Below are positions 15,992 through 54,054 of a DNA stretch of 64,000 bases, in pieces. This DNA is from Haloarcula salina. Its GTDB lineage: Archaea; Halobacteriota; Halobacteria; Halobacteriales; Haloarculaceae. How positions within the stretch are numbered: the stretch's first letter is position 1; each line of letters starts with the position of its first letter. The stretch covers positions 62,001 to 126,000 of the forward strand of contig NZ_WRXL01000004.1 in NCBI RefSeq assembly GCF_010119195.1. Reading direction: 5' to 3'. The notes beneath the pieces were generated by a model, which saw only the letters and a list, made by a program, of their open reading frames with translations, did not search any database and was not told where the DNA came from. Made by a program: the position numbers and the translations under genes.

Positions 15992-16786
15992 CTAGCGCCC
16001 CTCGAACGACGGCTCCCGCCGCTGGGCGAACGCGCGGGCCCCCTCCTCGTGGTCGCGGGTCGTGAACGCCAGTCCCTGCGCGGCGGCCTCGTTTTCGAGC
16101 GCCTGCTCGAGGGACGCCTCGCTGCCGCGGTCGAGCAGCCGCTTCGCCTGTCCGAGGGCGACCGTCGGTCCCTCGGCGATAGTCGTCACCATGTTCTCGA
16201 CGCCCTCCTCGAAGGATTCGGTCTCGAACAGGCGGGTGAACAGGCCGAGTTCGCGGGCCGCGTCCGCGTCGAGGAGTTCGCCGGTGAAGACCAGTTCCTT
16301 GGCCTTGTTCGGGCCGACGATTCGGGGCAGGAAGTACGACACCCCCGAGTCGATGGCCAGGCCCACCCGGCGGAAGCCGAAACCGATCTTCGCGTCCGGG
16401 CTGGCGAACTGCACGTCGCAGGCGAGCGCCAGCCCCGCACCGGCACCGAACGCTGGGCCGTCGATCTTCGCGACGACCGGGCGGTCACAGCCGTCGACGG
16501 CCAGTATCGCGTCGTGGATGGCGGCGAGGACGCTGTCGACGCGCTCGGACGGCGGCTGGTCGCTCTCGACGCCGTCGAGCATCGCCTCGATGTCGCCGCC
16601 CGCGCAGAACGCCGAGCCCGCGCCGTCGAGCACCACGCATCGGGCGTCCCCGTCGCCGATTGCCTCGAACGCGTCGGTCAGTTCCTCGGCCAGCCGCTTC
16701 GAGAGGGCGTTGCGGGCATCAGGTCGGTTCAGCGTCACCGTCGTCACGTCCCCGTCGGTCGAGCGCGTGACAAGCTCCTCTGACAT
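15992..16786 (-). CDS. Enoyl-CoA hydratase/isomerase family protein
   Basis: 264 residues, crotonase fold: LNRPDARNALSKRLAEELTDAF, GAGSAFCAGGDIEAML (oxyanion loop), DGPAFGAGAGLALACDVQFAS and VGLAIDSGVSYFLPRIVGPNKAKELVFTGELLDA. The general reaction is addition of water to enoyl-CoA or double-bond shift; the exact substrate cannot be read. The Ser/Asp at the catalytic positions resembles the PaaG/PaaF group as much as beta-oxidation hydratases. Confidence 0.86.
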   Translation of the reverse strand: MSEELVTRSTDGDVTTVTLNRPDARNALSKRLAEELTDAFEAIGDGDARCVVLDGAGSAFCAGGDIEAMLDGVESDQPPSERVDSVLAAIHDAILAVDGCDRPVVAKIDGPAFGAGAGLALACDVQFASPDAKIGFGFRRVGLAIDSGVSYFLPRIVGPNKAKELVFTGELLDADAARELGLFTRLFETESFEEGVENMVTTIAEGPTVALGQAKRLLDRGSEASLEQALENEAAAQGLAFTTRDHEEGARAFAQRREPSFEGR

Positions 16787-16892
16787 GGCCGAGTCGACTC
16801 CCGGGACGGAGATAACTGTGGTGACTGTCAGCGAGCCGCGAACCGATGTCCTTGGGCAGTACCTTTTGACGGGGTGCGGACGTTGTCACCGT

Positions 16893-18290
16893 ATGCGCCT
16901 CCACTGGCATCGACGAGACCTGCGGGCGACGGACAACGCCGGGCTCGCGGCGGCGAGTCCGTCGGACCCCGTCGTCCCCGTGTTCGTCTTCGACAGGGCC
17001 GTCCTCGACCACGCCGCACCGCCGCGAGTCGCGTTCATGCTCGACGCGCTCGACAGCCTCAGGGCGTGGTACCGCGAGCGCGGGAGCGACCTCGTCGTCG
17101 CCGAGGGCGACCCGCGAGAGGTAGTGCCGGACCTCGCCGCGGAATACGGCGCGGAGACGGTGACGTGGGGAAAGGACTACTCCGGTCTCGCGCGCGAACG
17201 CGACGCGGCGGTCCGCCGGTCGCTGGACGACGCCGGCGTCTCCCGCGAGGCCGTCCAGAACGCCGTCCTGCACGAACCGGGCGAGATCACGACCAACGAC
17301 GGCGACCCCTACAGCGTGTTCACCTACTTCGGACGGAAGTGGCACGACCGGGAGAAGGCCGCGCCCTACGACGCCCCCGACGCCGACGCGCTCGCGGCGG
17401 TCGAGGGCGACGACCTGCCGACGCTCGCGGACCTCGGCTTCGACGACCCGGAGGCAGACGTGCCGACCGCCGGGACCGGCGCGGCCCGTTCGTTGCTCGA
17501 CGACTTCCTGGACGAGGACGTCTACCGCTACGACGAGCGCCGCGACTATCCCGCCGACGAGTGCACGTCCCAGCTCTCGCCACACCTGAAGTTCGGGACC
17601 GTCGGTATCCGCGAGGTGTACGAGCGCACCGAGGCGGCGGCGGACGGCGTCGGCGGCGACCGGCGCGAGTCGGTCCGGGAGTTCCAGTCACAGCTCGCCT
17701 GGCGGGAGTTCTACGCGCAGGTGCTGTTCGCGTACCCGAGCGTCGTCACGTCGAACTACAAGTCCTACGAGAACCCCATCGATTGGGAGAACGACGGGGA
17801 CCTCCTGCAGGCGTGGAAGGACGGCGAGACGGGCTACCCCATCGTCGACGCCGGGATGCGCCAGCTCCGCGAGGAGGCGTACGTGCACAACCGCGTGCGG
17901 ATGATCGTCGCCTCCTTCCTCACCAAGGACCTGCTGGTGGACTGGCGCTACGGCTACGAGTGGTTCCGGGAGAAACTGGTCGACCACGACACGGCCAACG
18001 ACAACGGCGGCTGGCAGTGGGCCGCGTCGACGGGGACCGACGCCCAGCCGTACTTTCGCATCTTCAATCCGATGACGCAGGGCGAGGACTACGACCCCGA
18101 CGCCGAGTACATCAAGCGGTACGTCCCGGAGCTCCGGGACACCGACCCCGAGGTCATCCACGACTGGAACGAGTGCTCGCTCACCCAGCGGCGAAACGCC
18201 GCGCCCGACTACCCGGACCCGGTCGTCGATCACGGGGAGCGCCGCGAGCGGGCGCTGGCGATGTTCGAACGCGCACGAGGCGACGACTGA
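16893..18290 (+). CDS. phr: Deoxyribodipyrimidine photolyase (cryptochrome/photolyase family)
   Basis: 465 residues from ATG 16893. The N-terminal Rossmann antenna domain begins MRLHWHRRDLRATDNAGLA; the C-terminal FAD domain has TSQLSPHLKFGTVGIREVYE, QLAWREFYAQVLF, YPIVDAGMRQLREEAYVHNR, MIVASFLTKDLLVDWRYG and the flavin-binding signature NDNGGWQWAASTGTDAQPYF. The Trp chain residues for photoreduction are present. It repairs cyclobutane pyrimidine dimers with blue/UVA light, an expected function in a sunlit brine organism. The gene is divergent from the enoyl-CoA hydratase. Confidence 0.93.
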   Translation: MRLHWHRRDLRATDNAGLAAASPSDPVVPVFVFDRAVLDHAAPPRVAFMLDALDSLRAWYRERGSDLVVAEGDPREVVPDLAAEYGAETVTWGKDYSGLARERDAAVRRSLDDAGVSREAVQNAVLHEPGEITTNDGDPYSVFTYFGRKWHDREKAAPYDAPDADALAAVEGDDLPTLADLGFDDPEADVPTAGTGAARSLLDDFLDEDVYRYDERRDYPADECTSQLSPHLKFGTVGIREVYERTEAAADGVGGDRRESVREFQSQLAWREFYAQVLFAYPSVVTSNYKSYENPIDWENDGDLLQAWKDGETGYPIVDAGMRQLREEAYVHNRVRMIVASFLTKDLLVDWRYGYEWFREKLVDHDTANDNGGWQWAASTGTDAQPYFRIFNPMTQGEDYDPDAEYIKRYVPELRDTDPEVIHDWNECSLTQRRNAAPDYPDPVVDHGERRERALAMFERARGDD

Positions 18291-18477
18291 GCGGACGACG
18301 CTCGTGACGACCGGCGTGAATGTGCCGCTTCCTGACACCCGCTCGACGCCGATATCTGGCTGGGCGAGCGACGGCCGAACGGCGACTCCCTCACCGTGTG
18401 CATGAGTGGTGATACCATACGGCTCCTAAACGTTTAACAGGCAGCCGCGCGACAGGTACCGATGGAGGCGTTTTCAT

Positions 18478-19089
18478 ATGTCCGAACATTCCAATCCCGA
18501 ACTGCCACCGCTCCCGTACGACTACGACGCGCTGGAGCCCCACATCTCCGAGCAGGTGCTCACCTGGCACCACGACACCCACCACCAGGGCTACGTAAAC
18601 GGCCTCGAATCGGCCGAGGAGACACTCGCCGAGAACCGCGAGGCGGGCGACTTCTCGTCGAGCGCCGGCGCGCTCGGCAACGTCACCCACAACGGCTGTG
18701 GTCACTACCTCCACACGCTGTTCTGGGAGAACATGGACCCCAACGGCGGCGGCGAGCCGGAGGGCGACCTCCGCGACCGCATCGAGGAGGACTTCGGCTC
18801 CTACGAGGGCTGGAAGGGCGAGTTCGAGGCCGCGGCCTCGGCCGCCGGCGGCTGGGCGCTGCTGGTCTACGACCCCGTCGCCAAGCAGCTCCGCAACGTC
18901 AAGGTCGACAAGCACGACCAGGGCGCGCTCTGGGGCGCACACCCGGTCCTCGCGCTCGACGTCTGGGAGCACTCCTACTACTACGACTACGGTCCGGCTC
19001 GCGGTGACTTCATCGACGCATTCTTCGAGGTCGTCGACTGGGACAAGGCCGCCGAAGAGTACCAGAAGTCGGTCGAACACTTCGAGTAA
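18478..19089 (+). CDS. sod: Superoxide dismutase (Mn/Fe family)
   Basis: 203 residues. Metal ligands are all visible: His22 (LEPHIS), His79 (LHTLFW), Asp161 and His165 (DVWEHSYYYDYG). The conserved HHDTHHQGYV and GGWALLVYD segments are intact. It converts superoxide to oxygen and peroxide in the cytoplasm; haloarchaeal members use Mn. A TATA-like CGTTTAAC (18431-18438) lies about 40 bases upstream, and a T6 run follows the stop. It is next to a photolyase, both being light/oxidation protection functions, but each seems to have its own promoter. Confidence 0.95.
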   Translation: MSEHSNPELPPLPYDYDALEPHISEQVLTWHHDTHHQGYVNGLESAEETLAENREAGDFSSSAGALGNVTHNGCGHYLHTLFWENMDPNGGGEPEGDLRDRIEEDFGSYEGWKGEFEAAASAAGGWALLVYDPVAKQLRNVKVDKHDQGALWGAHPVLALDVWEHSYYYDYGPARGDFIDAFFEVVDWDKAAEEYQKSVEHFE

Positions 19090-19278: not shown

Positions 19279-20667
19279 ATGAGTCAGGATACCAGCCGAC
19301 GACTATTTCTGAAGCGCACCGGAGCGGTAAGCACGGTCGGCCTGCTCGGCGGACTCGCAGGCTGTTCGACGGAGCAGACGGACGGCGGCAGTGGTGGCGA
19401 CGGCGGCGACGGCGGTGACGGCGGCAGCGACGGCGGGACCGGCACCGCGACCGGCGACGGGAGCGGCGGTGGCGGCGAGTCGCCGGACGTGCTGATGGTG
19501 GTCGGATACCCCCAGAGCGGGGTCCAGCTGTTCAAGGACTTCTACGCCGATTACGGGGACGACGCCGCGGACATCCTCGTCACCGACGGCTTGCAGGACG
19601 GCGAGCTCCCGAGCAACGTCGGCAACGACATGTCGAACGTCCGCGGGACCGCGCCGTCCGCGGCCGGCCCCGGCGTCGACACGTTCACCGAGCAGTTCAC
19701 CTCCGAGTTCGACTACGAGGAACCGGGCGTGTTCACCTCGCAGGCCTACGACGCGACGGCCGTCCAGATCCTCGCGAACCTCCTGGCGGGCGAGAACGAC
19801 GGGCAGGCCATCCGCGACCACATGCGCGTCGTCGCGAATCCGGGCGGGGACGCGTACGGCCCGTCCGAACTCCCTGCCGCCGTCGAGGCGGCCGCCGCCG
19901 GCGAGAACATCCAGTACGAAGGGGCGTCGAGCACCGTCAACTTCGACGAGAACGGGGATATGGCCTCGGCGCAGTACCAGGTCTTCGGCTTCCAGGACGG
20001 CGGCGGCATCGAGACGCTCAACACCGTCGACTTCAGCAGCAGCGGCGAGATCCCACAGCCCGAGCCGAGCGGCTCCGGTAGCGACGCGGGGCGAACGGTC
20101 AGTTTCGGCGTCCTGATGCCCGAGACCGGCGACCTCGGTCCGCTCGGCAAACCGATCCGGGACGCGGCCCTGCTCCCGGCGCTGCAACTGCAGGACCAGG
20201 TCGACTTCGAGTTCGACTACCAGGTCGGTGACACCCAGTCCGTCGCGCAGGCCGGCATCGACGCGGCGAACTCCCTCGTCAGCGCGGGCTACCCCTCGCT
20301 GACCGGGGCCGCGAGCTCCGAGGTGTCCATCCAGGTCGCCCGGAACGTCCTCGTCGACAGCGGCGTCGTGGGCTGTTCGCCGGCCTCCACGTCACCGACG
20401 CTCACGGGCCTCGAAGACGACGACTACATCTTCCGCACCCCGCCGAGCGACGCCCTGCAGGGGCAGGTGCTCGCGCAGGTCGGGATGTCCGAGATGGGCG
20501 CTGAGACCGCCTCGACGCTGTATCTCAACAACAGCTACGGGCAGGCGCTCCAGGAGGCCTTCGTCAGCGCGTTTGAGGAACGCGGCGGGACGGTCGTCAA
20601 TCAGGTCGGATTCGAGCAGCAGCAGTCCTCCTACACGTCCGAGATCAACAGCGCGATGAACCAGTAG
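19279..20667 (+). CDS. Liv-type ABC substrate-binding lipoprotein with circularly permuted halves
   Basis: 462 residues. A Tat-like signal (SRRLFLKR) and lipobox Cys29 (GLAGC) are followed by a Gly/Asp linker to about 68. Then the order is unusual. Residues 69-252 match the C-terminal half of Leu/Ile/Val-type binding proteins (VLMVVGYPQSGVQLF ... STVNFDENGDM ... VFGFQDGG). Residues 253-271 are a Ser/Gly/Pro linker. Residues 272-462 match the N-terminal half (VSFGVLMPETGDLGPLG ... GVVGCSPASTSPTLTG ... SSYTSEINSAMNQ). The canonical paralogue at 52687-54054 has the reverse order. The frame is intact with a promoter and a terminator. It converges on livF and probably supplies ligand to livHMGF; ligand unknown. 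Confidence 0.88.
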   Translation: MSQDTSRRLFLKRTGAVSTVGLLGGLAGCSTEQTDGGSGGDGGDGGDGGSDGGTGTATGDGSGGGGESPDVLMVVGYPQSGVQLFKDFYADYGDDAADILVTDGLQDGELPSNVGNDMSNVRGTAPSAAGPGVDTFTEQFTSEFDYEEPGVFTSQAYDATAVQILANLLAGENDGQAIRDHMRVVANPGGDAYGPSELPAAVEAAAAGENIQYEGASSTVNFDENGDMASAQYQVFGFQDGGGIETLNTVDFSSSGEIPQPEPSGSGSDAGRTVSFGVLMPETGDLGPLGKPIRDAALLPALQLQDQVDFEFDYQVGDTQSVAQAGIDAANSLVSAGYPSLTGAASSEVSIQVARNVLVDSGVVGCSPASTSPTLTGLEDDDYIFRTPPSDALQGQVLAQVGMSEMGAETASTLYLNNSYGQALQEAFVSAFEERGGTVVNQVGFEQQQSSYTSEINSAMNQ

Positions 20668-20683: not shown

Positions 20684-20689
20684 TTTTTT
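20684..20689 (+). terminator. Oligo-T terminator between convergent binding-protein and livF genes
   Basis: Six T followed by CGCC, 17 bases after the binding-protein stop, in the 27-base gap to the convergent livF stop. Confidence 0.5.
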
Positions 20690-20694
20690 CGCCG

Positions 20695-21450
20695 TTACCC
20701 GCCGAGGAAGTCCTGTCGCACTTGCTCGTCGTTCAGCAACACCGAGCCGTCGTCCTCGTAGCGGTTCTGGCCCTGGACGAGGACGTAGCCGCGGTCACAG
20801 CGACGGAGGGCTTCCTTGGCGTTCTGCTCGACCATCAGGATGGCCGTCCCGTCGTCGTTGATGCGGTCGATGCGGTCGAACATGTCCTCGACGAGGTCGG
20901 GCGCGAGGCCGGCCGAGGGCTCGTCGAGCAACAGGAGGTCCGGGTCGAGCATCAGTGCCCGCCCCATCGCGAGCATCTGCTGTTGGCCGCCCGAGAGCGT
21001 TCCGGCGTCCTGCTCGGAGCGCTCGCGGAGGATGGGAAAGCGCTCGTACACGTCCTCGATGCGGTCCTCCGGGACCTCGTCGAGGATGTACGCTCCCATC
21101 TCTAGGTTCTCGCGGACGGACAGCGAGCCGAAGACGTTGCCGGTCTGCGGGACGTAGCTGATCCCCTCGTAGATGATCTCGTCGGGGTTGCGCTCGCTGA
21201 TGTCGGTCCCGTCGAAGACGACCTCGCCGCCCATGTACGTCGTCAGCCCGAAGACGGACTTCATCACCGTCGACTTGCCGGCCCCGTTCGGCCCGACGAT
21301 GACGACGTACTCCTCGTCGGCCACGTCCATGTGCACGTCGCTGAGGACCTGCAGGTCGCCGTAGCCGGCGTCGAGGTTCCGTATCGCCAGCAGGCGCTCG
21401 GACGGGTCGGGCAGCGTGACCTCCGCCGAGACCGTCGCGCGCTGGCTCAT
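20695..21450 (-). CDS. livF: Branched-chain amino acid-type ABC transporter ATP-binding protein LivF
   Basis: 251 residues. Walker A is GPNGAGKST at 53-61; the signature LSGGQQQMLAMGRAL and Walker B DLLLLDEPSAG follow, then the switch region MVEQN. The FGSLSVRENLEMGAY and FERFPIL-type segments are typical of LivF rather than LivG. It energises import together with LivG. ATG 21450 overlaps the livG stop (ATGA); it is the last gene of the livHMGF operon. Confidence 0.9.
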   Translation of the reverse strand: MSQRATVSAEVTLPDPSERLLAIRNLDAGYGDLQVLSDVHMDVADEEYVVIVGPNGAGKSTVMKSVFGLTTYMGGEVVFDGTDISERNPDEIIYEGISYVPQTGNVFGSLSVRENLEMGAYILDEVPEDRIEDVYERFPILRERSEQDAGTLSGGQQQMLAMGRALMLDPDLLLLDEPSAGLAPDLVEDMFDRIDRINDDGTAILMVEQNAKEALRRCDRGYVLVQGQNRYEDDGSVLLNDEQVRQDFLGG

Positions 21451-22277
21451 ACCTCACCTCCCAGGTACGCCTCGAGCACGCGCTCGTCCGACGTGATTGC
21501 CTCGGCGTCCCCCTCGGCGAGGACACTCCCCTGGTGCATGACGATGATGTGTTCGCAGTTGTTCATGATGACGTCCATGTCGTGTTCCACGAGCAGGAAG
21601 GTCAGTCCCTGCTCGCGGCGGAGTTCGTGGATGCGCTCCAGTAGCTTCTCCTCCAGCGTCGGGTTCACGCCGGCGAGCGGTTCGTCGAGCAGGACCATCT
21701 CGGGGTCGGTCATCAGCACCCGCGCCATCTCCAGCAGCTTGCGCTGGCCGCCCGAGAGGTTTCCGGCGTTCTCGTGAGCGAGATGGTCGATCTCGAAGAA
21801 ATCGAGCGTCTCCCACGCGCGGTCCCGGACCGCCTCCTCGTCGGCGATCACGTCGTCGCGGAGCCCCGGCAGCACCGAGCGAATCGCCGACTCCCCGACC
21901 TGGTCGTCCGGCGCGAGCATCACGTTCTCCAGGACGGTCATGTCGGACAGCTCGCGGGCGATCTGGAACGTCCGCACGAGCCCGCGGTTCGCGAGCGTGT
22001 ACGGCGGGAGGCCGGTGATCTCCTGCCCGTCGAAGGTGACGCGCCCGCCGGTCGGCTCGTGGATACCGGTGATGCAGTTGAAGGTCGTGGACTTGCCCGC
22101 GCCGTTCGGCCCGATGAGGCCGGTGAGCGAGCCCTCGCCGACGGCGAACGTCGCCCCGTCGACGGCGACGACGCCGCCGAACTGCTTTCGGAGGCCGTCG
22201 ACCTCAAGCAGGGGGTCTTCGATGCTATCGCTGTCGACGGTCGCCGTCTGCCGCTCTGTCCCGGACGATTCACTCAT
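21447..22277 (-). CDS. livG: Branched-chain amino acid-type ABC transporter ATP-binding protein LivG
   Basis: 276 residues from ATG 22277. Walker A GPNGAGKST at 56-64 and LivG-specific TFNCITGIHEPTGGRVTFDG and VRTFQIARELSDMTVLENVML are clear, with LSGGQRKLLEMARVL and VLLDEPLAGVNPTLEEKLLE. It pairs with LivF under the LivH/LivM permease. The longer N-terminal extension in the open frame overlaps livM and is not needed. It overlaps livM by 8 bases and livF by 4. Confidence 0.9.
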   Translation of the reverse strand: MSESSGTERQTATVDSDSIEDPLLEVDGLRKQFGGVVAVDGATFAVGEGSLTGLIGPNGAGKSTTFNCITGIHEPTGGRVTFDGQEITGLPPYTLANRGLVRTFQIARELSDMTVLENVMLAPDDQVGESAIRSVLPGLRDDVIADEEAVRDRAWETLDFFEIDHLAHENAGNLSGGQRKLLEMARVLMTDPEMVLLDEPLAGVNPTLEEKLLERIHELRREQGLTFLLVEHDMDVIMNNCEHIIVMHQGSVLAEGDAEAITSDERVLEAYLGGEV

Positions 22278-23550
22278 CCGACTCACCCCCGAGATCGGCG
22301 CGGCTCCGGTCGAGGTCCACGCTCGCCGCCGGCTCGTTGCGGTGGCCGAGTAGCCCATCGGGCTGGTTCTGGATGATGTAGATGAGGACGACGCCGATGA
22401 GGACGAACCGGAGCGTGCTGACGTTGCCGACGGTGTAGGCCACCAGCGGGAACGGGTCGAGCGAGCCGAGCGCGGCGACGGCCTCGACGATGTTGCTCGG
22501 CGCGCGCGTGCCGAGCGGGACGTTCTCGCCGATGCGGGCCGGCAGGTAAAAGAGCAGACCGGAGAACGTCGCCGCGCCGAGGATGCTCCCGGTGTTGGAC
22601 CCGGAGCCGCCGATGATGAGCGCCGCGAAGACGTAGAAGGTGATTGTCGGCCGGAACTGGCTCGGGCTGATGTAGCCCGCCTGTCCGCGGAACAGGACGC
22701 CGGCCAGCCCCATCAGCGCGCAGCCGATCATGAACGTCTTGATCTTGAACACCCGGGTGTCCTTTCCGAGCGACTGGGTCACGGTCTCGTCCTCGCGAAT
22801 GGCCTTCAGCACGCGGCCGAACGGCGAGTTCGTGAGGCGGGCGAACACCCAGTAGCTCGCGCCCACGACCGCCATGAGCATGAGGCCGTACGTGAGGTTG
22901 GCGAGGTTCGGTGCGGAGACGCCGACGCCCTGGAACGCGGCGGCGACCGGCGCGCCAACGCCGTTGACGAGCGACCCGGCCACGTCGTTGGCCGACTCGA
23001 AGGAGATGCCCGTCGCGCCGCCGGTCCCGAGCGTCCGTCCGAACAGCGAGAACTCCGCGAGGCCGCTCCAGTTGACCGTCAGCCGGATGACCTCGGAGAA
23101 CGCCACCGTCACGATGGCGAGGTAGTCGGCCTTCAGCCTGAGCGCCGGCAGGGCGGCCAGTCCGCCGATGACCGCCGCCGCCAGCATTCCCCCGAGGAGG
23201 CCCACCCACAGCGGGAGGCCGAGGCCCGCCACCGCGCCGGCGGCGGGGTCGGTCGGGGCAGTCAGAATCGCCGTCGTGTACGCGCCGACGGCCATGAAGC
23301 CGGCGATGCCGATGTTGAACAGCCCGGTGTACCCCCACTGGAGGTTCAGCGCCAGCGCGAGGATCGCGTAGCCGCCGATGAGCACCGTGACGCTGCCGAT
23401 GAAGCCGGCGGCGAGGTTCGCCCACTCGGCGCCGCCGACGGAGAGCGCCAGGACGAGCATGATCGCCCAGATAGCGCCCATGAAGCCGGCGACCAGCCCG
23501 ATATCGGGGAGTGCGTCGAGGCGGTCGCGGACGGACTCGGCGACGCTCAC
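22270..23550 (-). CDS. livM: Branched-chain amino acid-type ABC transporter permease LivM
   Basis: 426 residues from GTG 23550, which overlaps the livH stop (GTGA); no ATG fits better. About ten hydrophobic helices. The LivM loop signature LKADYLAIVTVAFSEVIRL and the cytoplasmic NSPFGRVLKAIREDETVTQSLG are clear, along with FVFAALIIGGSGSNTGSILG-like conserved sequence near the end. It forms the membrane channel with LivH. Confidence 0.9.
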   Translation of the reverse strand: MSVAESVRDRLDALPDIGLVAGFMGAIWAIMLVLALSVGGAEWANLAAGFIGSVTVLIGGYAILALALNLQWGYTGLFNIGIAGFMAVGAYTTAILTAPTDPAAGAVAGLGLPLWVGLLGGMLAAAVIGGLAALPALRLKADYLAIVTVAFSEVIRLTVNWSGLAEFSLFGRTLGTGGATGISFESANDVAGSLVNGVGAPVAAAFQGVGVSAPNLANLTYGLMLMAVVGASYWVFARLTNSPFGRVLKAIREDETVTQSLGKDTRVFKIKTFMIGCALMGLAGVLFRGQAGYISPSQFRPTITFYVFAALIIGGSGSNTGSILGAATFSGLLFYLPARIGENVPLGTRAPSNIVEAVAALGSLDPFPLVAYTVGNVSTLRFVLIGVVLIYIIQNQPDGLLGHRNEPAASVDLDRSRADLGGESDE

Positions 23551-24662
23551 GCCGTCGTCACCCCCCCAAAGATGCCGGACGGGCGAAGGAGCAGGACGAC
23601 GATGAGCACGAGGAACGCCGCCGCCCGCGTCAGCCCCGACGGCAGCCAGATGAGGGCCAGACTGTCGACCAGCCCGATGAGGACGCCGCCGGCCATCGCG
23701 CCGTAGATCGACCCGATGCCGCCCACGATGACGGCGGCGAAGATGAGCAAGAGGAGGATCCAGCCGAAGTTGAACGAGATCGTTCCGCTCTCCAGGACGA
23801 GCAGGTAGCCGCCGACGCCGGCGAGGCCGCCGCCGAGGATCCACGTCAGCCGGATCACTCGCTCGGTCGGAATCCCCGTCACGCGCGCGAGGTCCTCGTT
23901 GTCGGCCATCGCTCGCATCGCCTTCCCGAGTTTGGTCCGCTGGAGGAGCAGGTGCACGGCCAGCATCAGCAGGAGGCTGACGACGAGCAGCGTGACCTCG
24001 TTGTCGGTCATCGAGACGGTTCCGAAGAACGTGATACGGAGGCCACCGCTCGCGACGCCGCTGGTCTGCGTGCCGAAGACGAAGGCGATGAGGTAGCGCA
24101 TCGCGAGCGCGACGCCGATCGAGGCGATCAGCAGCGAGATGTTTCCCGCGGCGCGCATCGGGCGGTACGTGAGTCGGTCGACGAGCAGCGTCACGCCCAC
24201 GCTCCCGACGCCGGCGACGACGAGGCCGAGGAGCACCGGGACGAACGTCGAGACAGTGCTCAGCTGTCGACCGGAGTTGAGCATGAACAGTTCCGCGATC
24301 GGCGCTCCCGTTCCGAGGCCGGCCGCGATGTAGGCGGCGACCCAGCCCAGGAACGCCCCGGCGGTCACGGTGTCGCCGTGGGCGAAGTTCGCGAAGTCGA
24401 GGATGCTGTAGGTCATCGACAGCCCGATGCCGGCCAGTCCGACCGCCAGTCCGACGAGCAAACCGTCGATGACCATCGAGAGCAGCGAGCCGAGTTCGAG
24501 CGAGCCACCCAACACCTGCATCCCGAGGAAGAACACGCTGATTCCGGAGAGCTTTACGACGAGATCGAGGACGAGGTAGCCCAGGACGGCGGCCACCGCG
24601 ACTGCCCCCGGCCGGTCGACCACCGCCGCCCGACTATCCCCAGCGTTCGCGACGAGTCCCAT
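23547..24662 (-). CDS. livH: Branched-chain amino acid-type ABC transporter permease LivH
   Basis: 371 residues. Starts with a hydrophobic segment, then the LivH motif GLAVGLAGIGLSMTYSILDFANFAHGD, the cytoplasmic loop GKAMRAMADNEDLARVTGIP, and GGIGSIYGAMAGGVLIGLVDS near the end. It is the first gene of the operon; a TATA-like GGTTATTTAGA lies about 30-40 bases before its ATG. No binding protein is placed upstream as would be usual; the only candidate is the convergent permuted one. Confidence 0.9.
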   Translation of the reverse strand: MGLVANAGDSRAAVVDRPGAVAVAAVLGYLVLDLVVKLSGISVFFLGMQVLGGSLELGSLLSMVIDGLLVGLAVGLAGIGLSMTYSILDFANFAHGDTVTAGAFLGWVAAYIAAGLGTGAPIAELFMLNSGRQLSTVSTFVPVLLGLVVAGVGSVGVTLLVDRLTYRPMRAAGNISLLIASIGVALAMRYLIAFVFGTQTSGVASGGLRITFFGTVSMTDNEVTLLVVSLLLMLAVHLLLQRTKLGKAMRAMADNEDLARVTGIPTERVIRLTWILGGGLAGVGGYLLVLESGTISFNFGWILLLLIFAAVIVGGIGSIYGAMAGGVLIGLVDSLALIWLPSGLTRAAAFLVLIVVLLLRPSGIFGGVTTA

Positions 24663-52686: not shown

Positions 52687-54054
52687 TCAGATCAGCTCGT
52701 TCGCCGGGATGGTCCGCTGGTCGGTGAACGACCCGTCCTCCACTTTGACGACGGCCATGTCGCTGGCGACGTCGCCGTTGGAGTCGTAGTTGACGGTGCC
52801 GCTCGGGCCGGAGTAGTCGATGGCGGAACCGCCGTCGATCTTGCTCACCCCGTCGGCGAACTGGCCGTAACTGACCGCCATGCCGTCCGGGTTCGAGACG
52901 GCCCGCATGCTCTCCTTGACCGCGCCGGAGTCGGTGGTTCCCGCGTGGTGGACCGCAAGCGCGTACGACAGCAGCGCGTCGTAGGAGTTCCACGAGTACG
53001 GCGAGAACAGGTCGGCGTCCGGATACGCCGAGGCGTAGTCGCTCTTGAAGGACTCCGTCGCGTCGCCCGTCGGCGGTTTCGTGCGCACACCGTACATCCC
53101 GTTGAGGACGTCGGACCCGACGTTGTTCAGGAAGTCGTTCGAGAGCAGACTGGTGTGCAGGACCCAGTTGCCTCCGTAGCCCTCCTCGTTCCACTGGCTG
53201 AGGATGGTCGTCCCGCTCTCGGGGTAGCCCGCGAGCGCGACGAACTCGGGGTCGTCGGCGTACAGTTCCGAGAGGACCTGCTGGTACGACGACTGGCCGG
53301 ATTCGTAGCCGACTTTCGCCGTCGTGGTGCCGGTGAAGGACTCCTCGAAGGTGTTCGCCAGCGCCTTTCCGAAGTCGTTGTTGATGTGCAGGACGGCCGC
53401 CTTCTCGACGTCCTGGTTCTGGATGATCTGGGCCATCACCTTCGCGACGAAGCGGTCGTTGGTCCGGGTGCGAAACACCAGATCGTTGTCGTCGAGCGTG
53501 CTGATCGTCGGCGACGATGACGCGGACGTGATGTGCAACGTCTCGTTCGGAATCGTCACCGACGAGGCGATACTGATCGTCACGCCGCTGGAGACGGCAC
53601 CGATTATCGAGGAGACGTTCTGGGTGTTGATCAGCGAGTTGGCCGCATTGACCCCCGCCGTCGAGTTGGTCTCGGAGTCCTCGTCGTGGAGTCTGATCTC
53701 GCGACCGAGGGGACCACCGGCCGCGTTGATGTCTTTGGCAGCCATCTGGAGCGCATTCAGCATCGGTTCACCGAAGTCACTCAGGTCGCCGCTGAACGGA
53801 ATGACGACGCCGACGTCGATCGGTTCGCTGCTCTCGGAGTCGCCGCCGTCTCCCCCGCTGTCGGTCGATCCGGAACTTCCGTCACCGCCGCCTCCCCCGT
53901 CACCGCCGTCGCTCCCGCCGCTCCCGTCGCCACCGTCACCCTGTAACTCTTCCTGACTCGAACAGCCTGCCAGACCACCGGCGGCGATCAGGCCGGTCGC
54001 GCGGAGAAACCGCCGTCTGTTAAGCCGTTCGATAAATTTGTTATCACCAGACAT
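52687..54054 (-). CDS. Liv-type ABC substrate-binding lipoprotein, canonical domain order
   Basis: 455 residues. Twin-Arg region (NRRRFLRATG), lipobox with Cys31 (GLAGC), Gly/Asp/Ser linker to about 78. Then the standard order: N-half 79-262 (VGVVIPFSGDLSDFG ... SSYQQVLSELYAD) and C-half 268-440 (FVALAGYPESGTTIL ... GTVNYDSNGDV). It delivers ligand to livHMGF further down the operon. Because hyuA/hyuB lie between, the ligand is probably a cyclic amide or related compound rather than a branched-chain amino acid. Serves as the reference for the permuted protein at 19279. Confidence 0.92.
   Translation of the reverse strand: MSGDNKFIERLNRRRFLRATGLIAAGGLAGCSSQEELQGDGGDGSGGSDGGDGGGGGDGSSGSTDSGGDGGDSESSEPIDVGVVIPFSGDLSDFGEPMLNALQMAAKDINAAGGPLGREIRLHDEDSETNSTAGVNAANSLINTQNVSSIIGAVSSGVTISIASSVTIPNETLHITSASSSPTISTLDDNDLVFRTRTNDRFVAKVMAQIIQNQDVEKAAVLHINNDFGKALANTFEESFTGTTTAKVGYESGQSSYQQVLSELYADDPEFVALAGYPESGTTILSQWNEEGYGGNWVLHTSLLSNDFLNNVGSDVLNGMYGVRTKPPTGDATESFKSDYASAYPDADLFSPYSWNSYDALLSYALAVHHAGTTDSGAVKESMRAVSNPDGMAVSYGQFADGVSKIDGGSAIDYSGPSGTVNYDSNGDVASDMAVVKVEDGSFTDQRTIPANELI

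Follow-up and report, generated by a model that had tools for sequence, protein, structure and literature searches.

Circularly permuted Liv-type substrate-binding proteins of the Halobacteriales, with a chain cut that probably recurred at one loop

The gene at 19279-20667 (+ strand) of the window, a 64,000-nucleotide stretch of Haloarcula salina DNA, encodes a substrate-binding protein (SBP) whose two halves stand in reversed order. We consider it very likely that this is a working permuted amino-acid SBP, that its chain order (form B) arose repeatedly at one loop, by what is probably a duplication route, and that it was permuted again into a further order (form C). The more specific reading, that the Liv-type SBP was permuted about five times at that loop with the transporter inherited, and that one lineage was re-permuted at another loop, is probable. 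The reading frame is intact over 462 codons, and the protein runs Z-linker-X-Y (residues 69-252, a 19-residue linker, residues 272-462) where canonical relatives run X-Y-Z. Here X denotes the first beta-alpha unit (272-309), Y the remainder of the N-terminal half (310-462), and Z the C-terminal half (69-252).

The protein begins with a Tat-type lipoprotein signal recognized from the sequence, MSQDTSRRLFLKRTGAVSTVGLLGGLAGC (19279-19365, +), followed by a Gly/Asp/Ser-rich tether of residues 30-68 (19366-19482, +) that leads from the lipid anchor to the fold. Module Z (19483-20034, +), which is C-terminal in canonical relatives, contributes the DGL aspartate to the ligand pocket. The linker (residues 253-271; 20035-20091, +) bridges the old C and N termini. 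Module X (20092-20205, +), the canonical first beta-alpha unit and the extreme C-terminus of permutant C, is followed by module Y (20206-20664, +), which carries the pocket Ser, Thr, Asp, and Tyr and meets its stop codon at the junction that joins Y to Z in canonical proteins (the Y|Z loop). A T-run picked out by eye at 20684-20689 (+), where the SBP and livF genes converge, is a possible terminator. An earlier sequence-only reading had listed an intact frame with signal, lipobox, promoter and T-run; the open frame, the twin Arg, the LAGC lipobox and the T-run were all found again.

Against the Pfam family PF13458 (Peripla_BP_6), the window protein scored 79.8 bits (cut-off 31.7) with its halves reversed: residues 273-461 correspond to profile positions 1-188 (E 3.9e-22), and the canonical order, with the N-terminal half of the profile first, is not the order of this protein. 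A phmmer search of the PDB aligned residues 272-460 with 3td9 residues 15-201, residues 69-190 with 205-327, and residues 212-230 with 324-342. The closest sequence matches were Leu/Ile/Val-type SBPs and metabotropic glutamate receptors (mGluRs). The comparison sequence within the window, a distant paralogue at 52687-54054 (- strand; 31-34% identity per half), matches PF13458 in canonical order, its residues 78-440 covering positions 1-341. The swap of halves claimed by the sequence-only reading is borne out by the profile order, the PDB matches and 99 orthologous genes, and since the swapped order is seen again in that many distinct orthologs it lies far beyond chance.

Given the window protein and 50 relatives, AlphaFold2 predicted a single compact type I Venus-flytrap (pLDDT 88.6, pTM 0.87), compared with pLDDT 90.5 and pTM 0.89 for a canonical ortholog. 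The list of helices and strands in the permuted model is that of the canonical model rotated, with the cut falling between canonical helix H185-191 and strand E198-202. Foldseek aligned the canonical model to LivK (3td9) over 377 columns with a TM score of 0.82 and the permuted model over 195 columns with a TM score of 0.40; only half of the permuted model is covered because the aligner is sequential, as expected for a permutant. The predicted structure is a two-lobed alpha/beta flytrap, and each half matched in the PDB is a LivK/LBP half. Structure prediction, which the sequence-only reading had named as a check, thus came out for the permutation, in that the two halves are predicted to form one fold.

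In mGlu1, Ser165, Thr188, Asp208, and Tyr236 bind the alpha-amino-acid groups of the ligand (PMC2680970). The equivalents of these four residues, placed through an alignment with mGlu6/7, are invariant in 34 permuted (A1) and 15 canonical (A3) proteins, as is the aspartate of the DG motif, a fifth amino- or carboxylate-binding residue whose match to mGlu1 Asp318 is by motif only. Because the pocket residues aligned to mGlu1 are invariant, the ligand of the permuted SBP is most likely an alpha-amino acid. In three Haloarcula ortholog pairs dN/dS was 0.04-0.13 in both halves, and in one more distant Haloarcula pair it was 0.28-0.30. A circular permutation in which the whole fold is kept, as the sequence-only reading proposed, is therefore supported by the profile order, the structure prediction, the conserved pocket and purifying selection. 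Every B gene (99 of 99) encodes a twin-Arg motif, and 91 encode a lipobox. The Tat pathway exports folded proteins, and one might speculate that folded export eases tolerance of an odd chain order.

Across the family and order (Halobacteriales) we gathered 171 distinct genes, comprising 67 in canonical order (XYZ), 99 of the B form (ZXY), and five of the second permutant, C (YZX); these three were the only orders among the 171 genes, all of which hold all three modules. The B genes come from 95 genomes. Permuted forms occur in 36 genera and nine families of the Halobacteriales, among them Haloarcula, Halorubrum, Haloferax, Halobellus, Halogeometricum, Haladaptatus, Halorussus, Natrialba, Natronorubrum, and Haloquadratum. 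Of 32 Haloarcula genomes sampled, 28 possess the permuted gene (74-90% identity). In three of the other four, livF is represented only by a 49% paralogue, and in the fourth, a genome that is 71% complete, livF is absent at the threshold used, so the whole locus seems to be missing from these genomes. A 295-genome sample of the phylum gave 24 strong matches, all inside the Halobacteriales and none beyond. Both canonical and permuted forms were found in four sampled genomes, and one GTDB genus (g15) shows all three orders. The database search suggested by the sequence-only reading thus placed the permuted order well beyond the window gene, not as a one-off but as an old and widespread haloarchaeal form.

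The Y|Z loop of canonical genes spans exactly three residues from helix end to strand start (67 of 67). All 99 B genes stop one to five residues into it: the tree rows of clades B1, B2a, B2b, and B3 end two residues into the loop and those of B4 two to five. In most B genes Z opens with the matching 'PD' of the loop, so nothing was lost or doubled at the cut. In the window gene the cut reads 'SAMNQ / SPDVLMVVGYP', directly past the helix, with zero residues lost or duplicated. The exact cut proposed from the sequence, between SELYAD and FVALAGYP of the paralogue, lies in the same loop but needs adjusting, as the sequence of the paralogue is SELYADDPEFVALAGYP and the equivalent 'SPD' is retained in the permuted Z. 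The linkers that bridge the old termini differ by clade, being IPQPEPSGSGSDAGRT in B1, LTEEDQNATAEAPVGVDSFEA in B3, and NPDGAGPSADSGPGG.GRE in B4; the B2 linker resembles that of B4. Structurally, the Y|Z loop crosses over from strand 2 to strand 3 of the lobe 2 sheet, and the C cut falls between strands 1 and 2 of lobe 1. Since both cuts precede a strand, the tether leads into the beginning of a strand in each case, just as in the canonical protein. We infer that the Y|Z loop is a permissive site of tether entry, which would account for the recurring cut.

A phylogenetic tree of 95 SBP genes was constructed with an IQ-TREE mixture model after all proteins were rearranged to X-Y-Z order. It contains five changes between canonical and permuted order, each of them required by well-supported branches, and in addition two changes from B to C. 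Trees of X+Y alone and of Z alone each gave five changes. The LivFGMH transporter tree gave six canonical/permuted changes, at least four of them forced, and LivF+G alone gave five. In approximately unbiased (AU) tests, for which some groups were picked post hoc from the tree, a single permuted clade was rejected on the SBP tree (difference 74 log units, p 0.009) and on the transporter trees (LivF+G, p 0.007; all four proteins, p 2.6e-96). Uniting B2+B3+B4 on the SBP tree gave p 0.04, whereas uniting B3+B4 (p 0.125) and keeping C as one clade (p 0.21) were not rejected. On the transporter tree, B3+B4 (p 0.0003) and B2+B4 (p 0.002) were rejected; B1+B4 (p 0.067) and B2a+B2b (p 0.41) were not. 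B2a and B2b may therefore be one event, as may the two C groups. One origin of the permuted order is excluded by these formal tests, which reject a single clade on both the SBP and the transporter trees; about five is the most parsimonious number, although not a proven one.

Both trees recover the same key sister groupings: the canonical genes L203, L115, L205, and L214 join B3 (Halorubrum and others), and canonical L067 joins its close relative B2b (L043). Canonical genes L095, L122, and L123 are neighbors of B4 in the SBP tree but lie within the B4 clade in the transporter tree, a difference that suggests reversion or SBP swap, and some reversions from B to canonical order are possible. The C form was seen in only five metagenome-assembled genomes (MAGs; L061, L062, L063, L064, and L065; also L281). 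Its chain begins at Y, continues through Z, and finishes with linker and X. Because the C linker is of the B4 type, C appears to be a permutant of a permutant; it is nested within the B4 clade of the SBP tree (support 100/99) and falls into two subclades with slightly different ends. We conclude that C came from B by one or more further permutations.

In the window the SBP gene is convergent to livF (20695-21450) and livG (21447-22358), encoding ATP-binding subunits, and livM (22270-23550) and livH (23547-24662), encoding permeases, all on the - strand. The same convergent arrangement with livF-livG-livM-livH is found for canonical, B, and C forms alike in nearly all genes, and livF and livG lie at the locus for 144 of the 171 SBP genes. 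Linkage to LivF, LivG, LivM, and LivH points to an SBP of a Liv-type importer. B would have arisen from canonical genes with this identical gene arrangement, the cut falling always in one alpha-to-beta loop. The route was probably tandem duplication in place, in-frame fusion and trimming, and fusion and trimming would have been tolerated since the Y|Z loop lets the tether in. Permutation by duplication has been proposed before (PMC3320104), and it fits best here because complete tandem B copies occur in Haladaptatus-type genomes (f17g46): L173 (positions 3917 and 5415), L174 (2403 and 3992), L175 (3932 and 5450), and L178 (3998 and 5437) each have two B-form SBPs in tandem, so the liv locus does undergo tandem duplication. 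No fused multi-copy intermediate was found among the 171 genes. The upstream and downstream flanks of permuted genes held no leftover halves, only the complete tandem copies of the Haladaptatus type, and the very long open frames around some matches contained one module set each. The tandem duplication with loss of outer halves that the sequence-only reading put forward is thus plausible, but neither a fused intermediate nor a leftover half turned up in the 171 genes or their flanks.

Alternatively, a canonical gene might have come apart at the Y|Z loop, its halves then being rejoined in reverse. The clean cut, with neither overlap nor loss at the new ends, would suit such a fission and fusion. 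We nevertheless regard it as unlikely: none of the 171 loci has a half as a separate intact gene, the only broken canonical gene is one with a single stop codon, a Z half cut loose would have no export signal, and the Haladaptatus-type tandem copies show that duplication occurs. Quite unlikely, too, is a single permutation whose scatter across the trees reflects many reversions, or gene conversion by resident canonical paralogues that replaced both halves of permuted genes but spared the junctions. The one loop cut everywhere, the coexistence of both forms in four sampled genomes, the similar B2 and B4 linkers, and the nesting of canonical L095/L122/L123 among B4 transporters speak for it. Yet each SBP half independently yields five changes, and the transporter genes, which would not have been co-converted, yield five to six and reject one clade; gene conversion as the sole cause is unlikely on these grounds. 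The B1 and B3 linkers are also unlike that of B4, whose motif persists across many genera, and a permuted ancestor would, judging from the SBP tree, require more reversions than the five gains.

That the permuted gene is a remnant without function, or encodes a receptor unconnected with the neighboring importer, seems very improbable. Its convergent position outside the livFGMH operon could be taken that way, but purifying selection, the intact Tat signal and the invariant pocket argue against a remnant, and canonical orthologs occupy the identical convergent position. Moreover, where the permuted SBP is absent, in four Haloarcula genomes, livF is represented only by the 49% paralogue or is not found at threshold. 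An assembly artefact or local misjoin in the window genome has next to no chance of explaining the gene: we found zero evidence for one, and it is refuted by the recurrence of the permuted order in 28 of 32 Haloarcula genomes and in 36 genera, in independent assemblies that include complete chromosomes.

As a working permuted SBP, the protein would be exported by Tat and held by its N-terminal lipid anchor, and its two lobes would close on an amino acid that would then be handed to LivH and LivM. Since the chain begins at strand 3 of lobe 2 and not at strand 1 of lobe 1, the tether would sit on the other lobe, and since a linker of about 19 residues bridges the old termini, a fourth lobe crossing is expected.

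The sequence-only reading knew of no described natural permutant of this family. A permuted type I SBP is, however, known: TpMglB-2 (Tp0684) of Treponema pallidum is a crystallized natural permutant with intact glucose binding, for which, with its homologs, the class 'Type Ic / Cluster Bc' was proposed (PMC4990184). It has another cut and belongs to a sugar-binding family. The haloarchaeal protein resembles TpMglB-2 in being a natural permutant of a lipid-anchored type I SBP, and in TpMglB-2 ligand binding and closure are retained while the permutation adds a fourth lobe crossing (PMC4990184). TpMglB-2 is, however, glucose-binding, bacterial (spirochetes and Gram-positives), and cut past the third strand of lobe 1, whereas the haloarchaeal permutants belong to the Liv amino-acid family, are archaeal, have close canonical relatives and show evidence of several origins. 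They do not belong to the glucose/galactose-binding (MglB) subfamily. Nor are they Type Ic proteins, in which the first three strands of lobe 1 lie at the C-terminus (PMC4990184): in B the whole 190-residue N-terminal half is moved, in C no more than the first beta-alpha unit. With canonical LivJ/LivK-type SBPs (PF13458; PDB 3td9, 4gnr, and 4n0q) they share the fold, the pocket and the association with LivF/G/M/H, differing in the order of the halves and in the position of the tether, which in canonical proteins is on strand 1 of lobe 1. DNA methyltransferases are described in PMC3320104, which cites Jeltsch 1999 and Bujnicki 2002, as having several natural cyclic orders for which permutation by duplication was proposed; by comparison, in the haloarchaea one cut is found repeatedly among sister loci that have close canonical counterparts, and a second permutation is stacked upon the first. 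No haloarchaeal or Liv-family permutant was found in a search of open-access literature. The recurrence, the fixed cut, and the paired canonical relatives make the haloarchaeal case unusual among the known permutants.

Most natural permutants are isolated, which makes their route and reason hard to test. In the haloarchaea, close orthologs of both orders adjoin one transporter lineage, and L067 and L043 would make a good experimental pair. Recurrence together with such pairs makes it testable whether mutation, folding or the position of the tether picks the cut, and also allows one to ask if the permease is sensitive to the chain order of its SBP. If the proposed history is true, these genes are replicates of the natural evolution of chain topology with function held constant. 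Profile-based annotation labels the permuted genes as ordinary SBPs, which calls for caution. Comparison of window positions 16062-19089 with loci L027 to L035 showed a photolyase and a superoxide dismutase gene upstream in one half of Haloarcula; in the other half these genes were not found upstream, and the SBP-liv block is constant. A canonical ortholog in MAG QH_7_65_31 (L076:6535-6730; the genome also of L107 and L276) contains one in-frame TAA shortly past the Y|Z loop, which may mark a pseudogene, a polymorphism or a MAG error.
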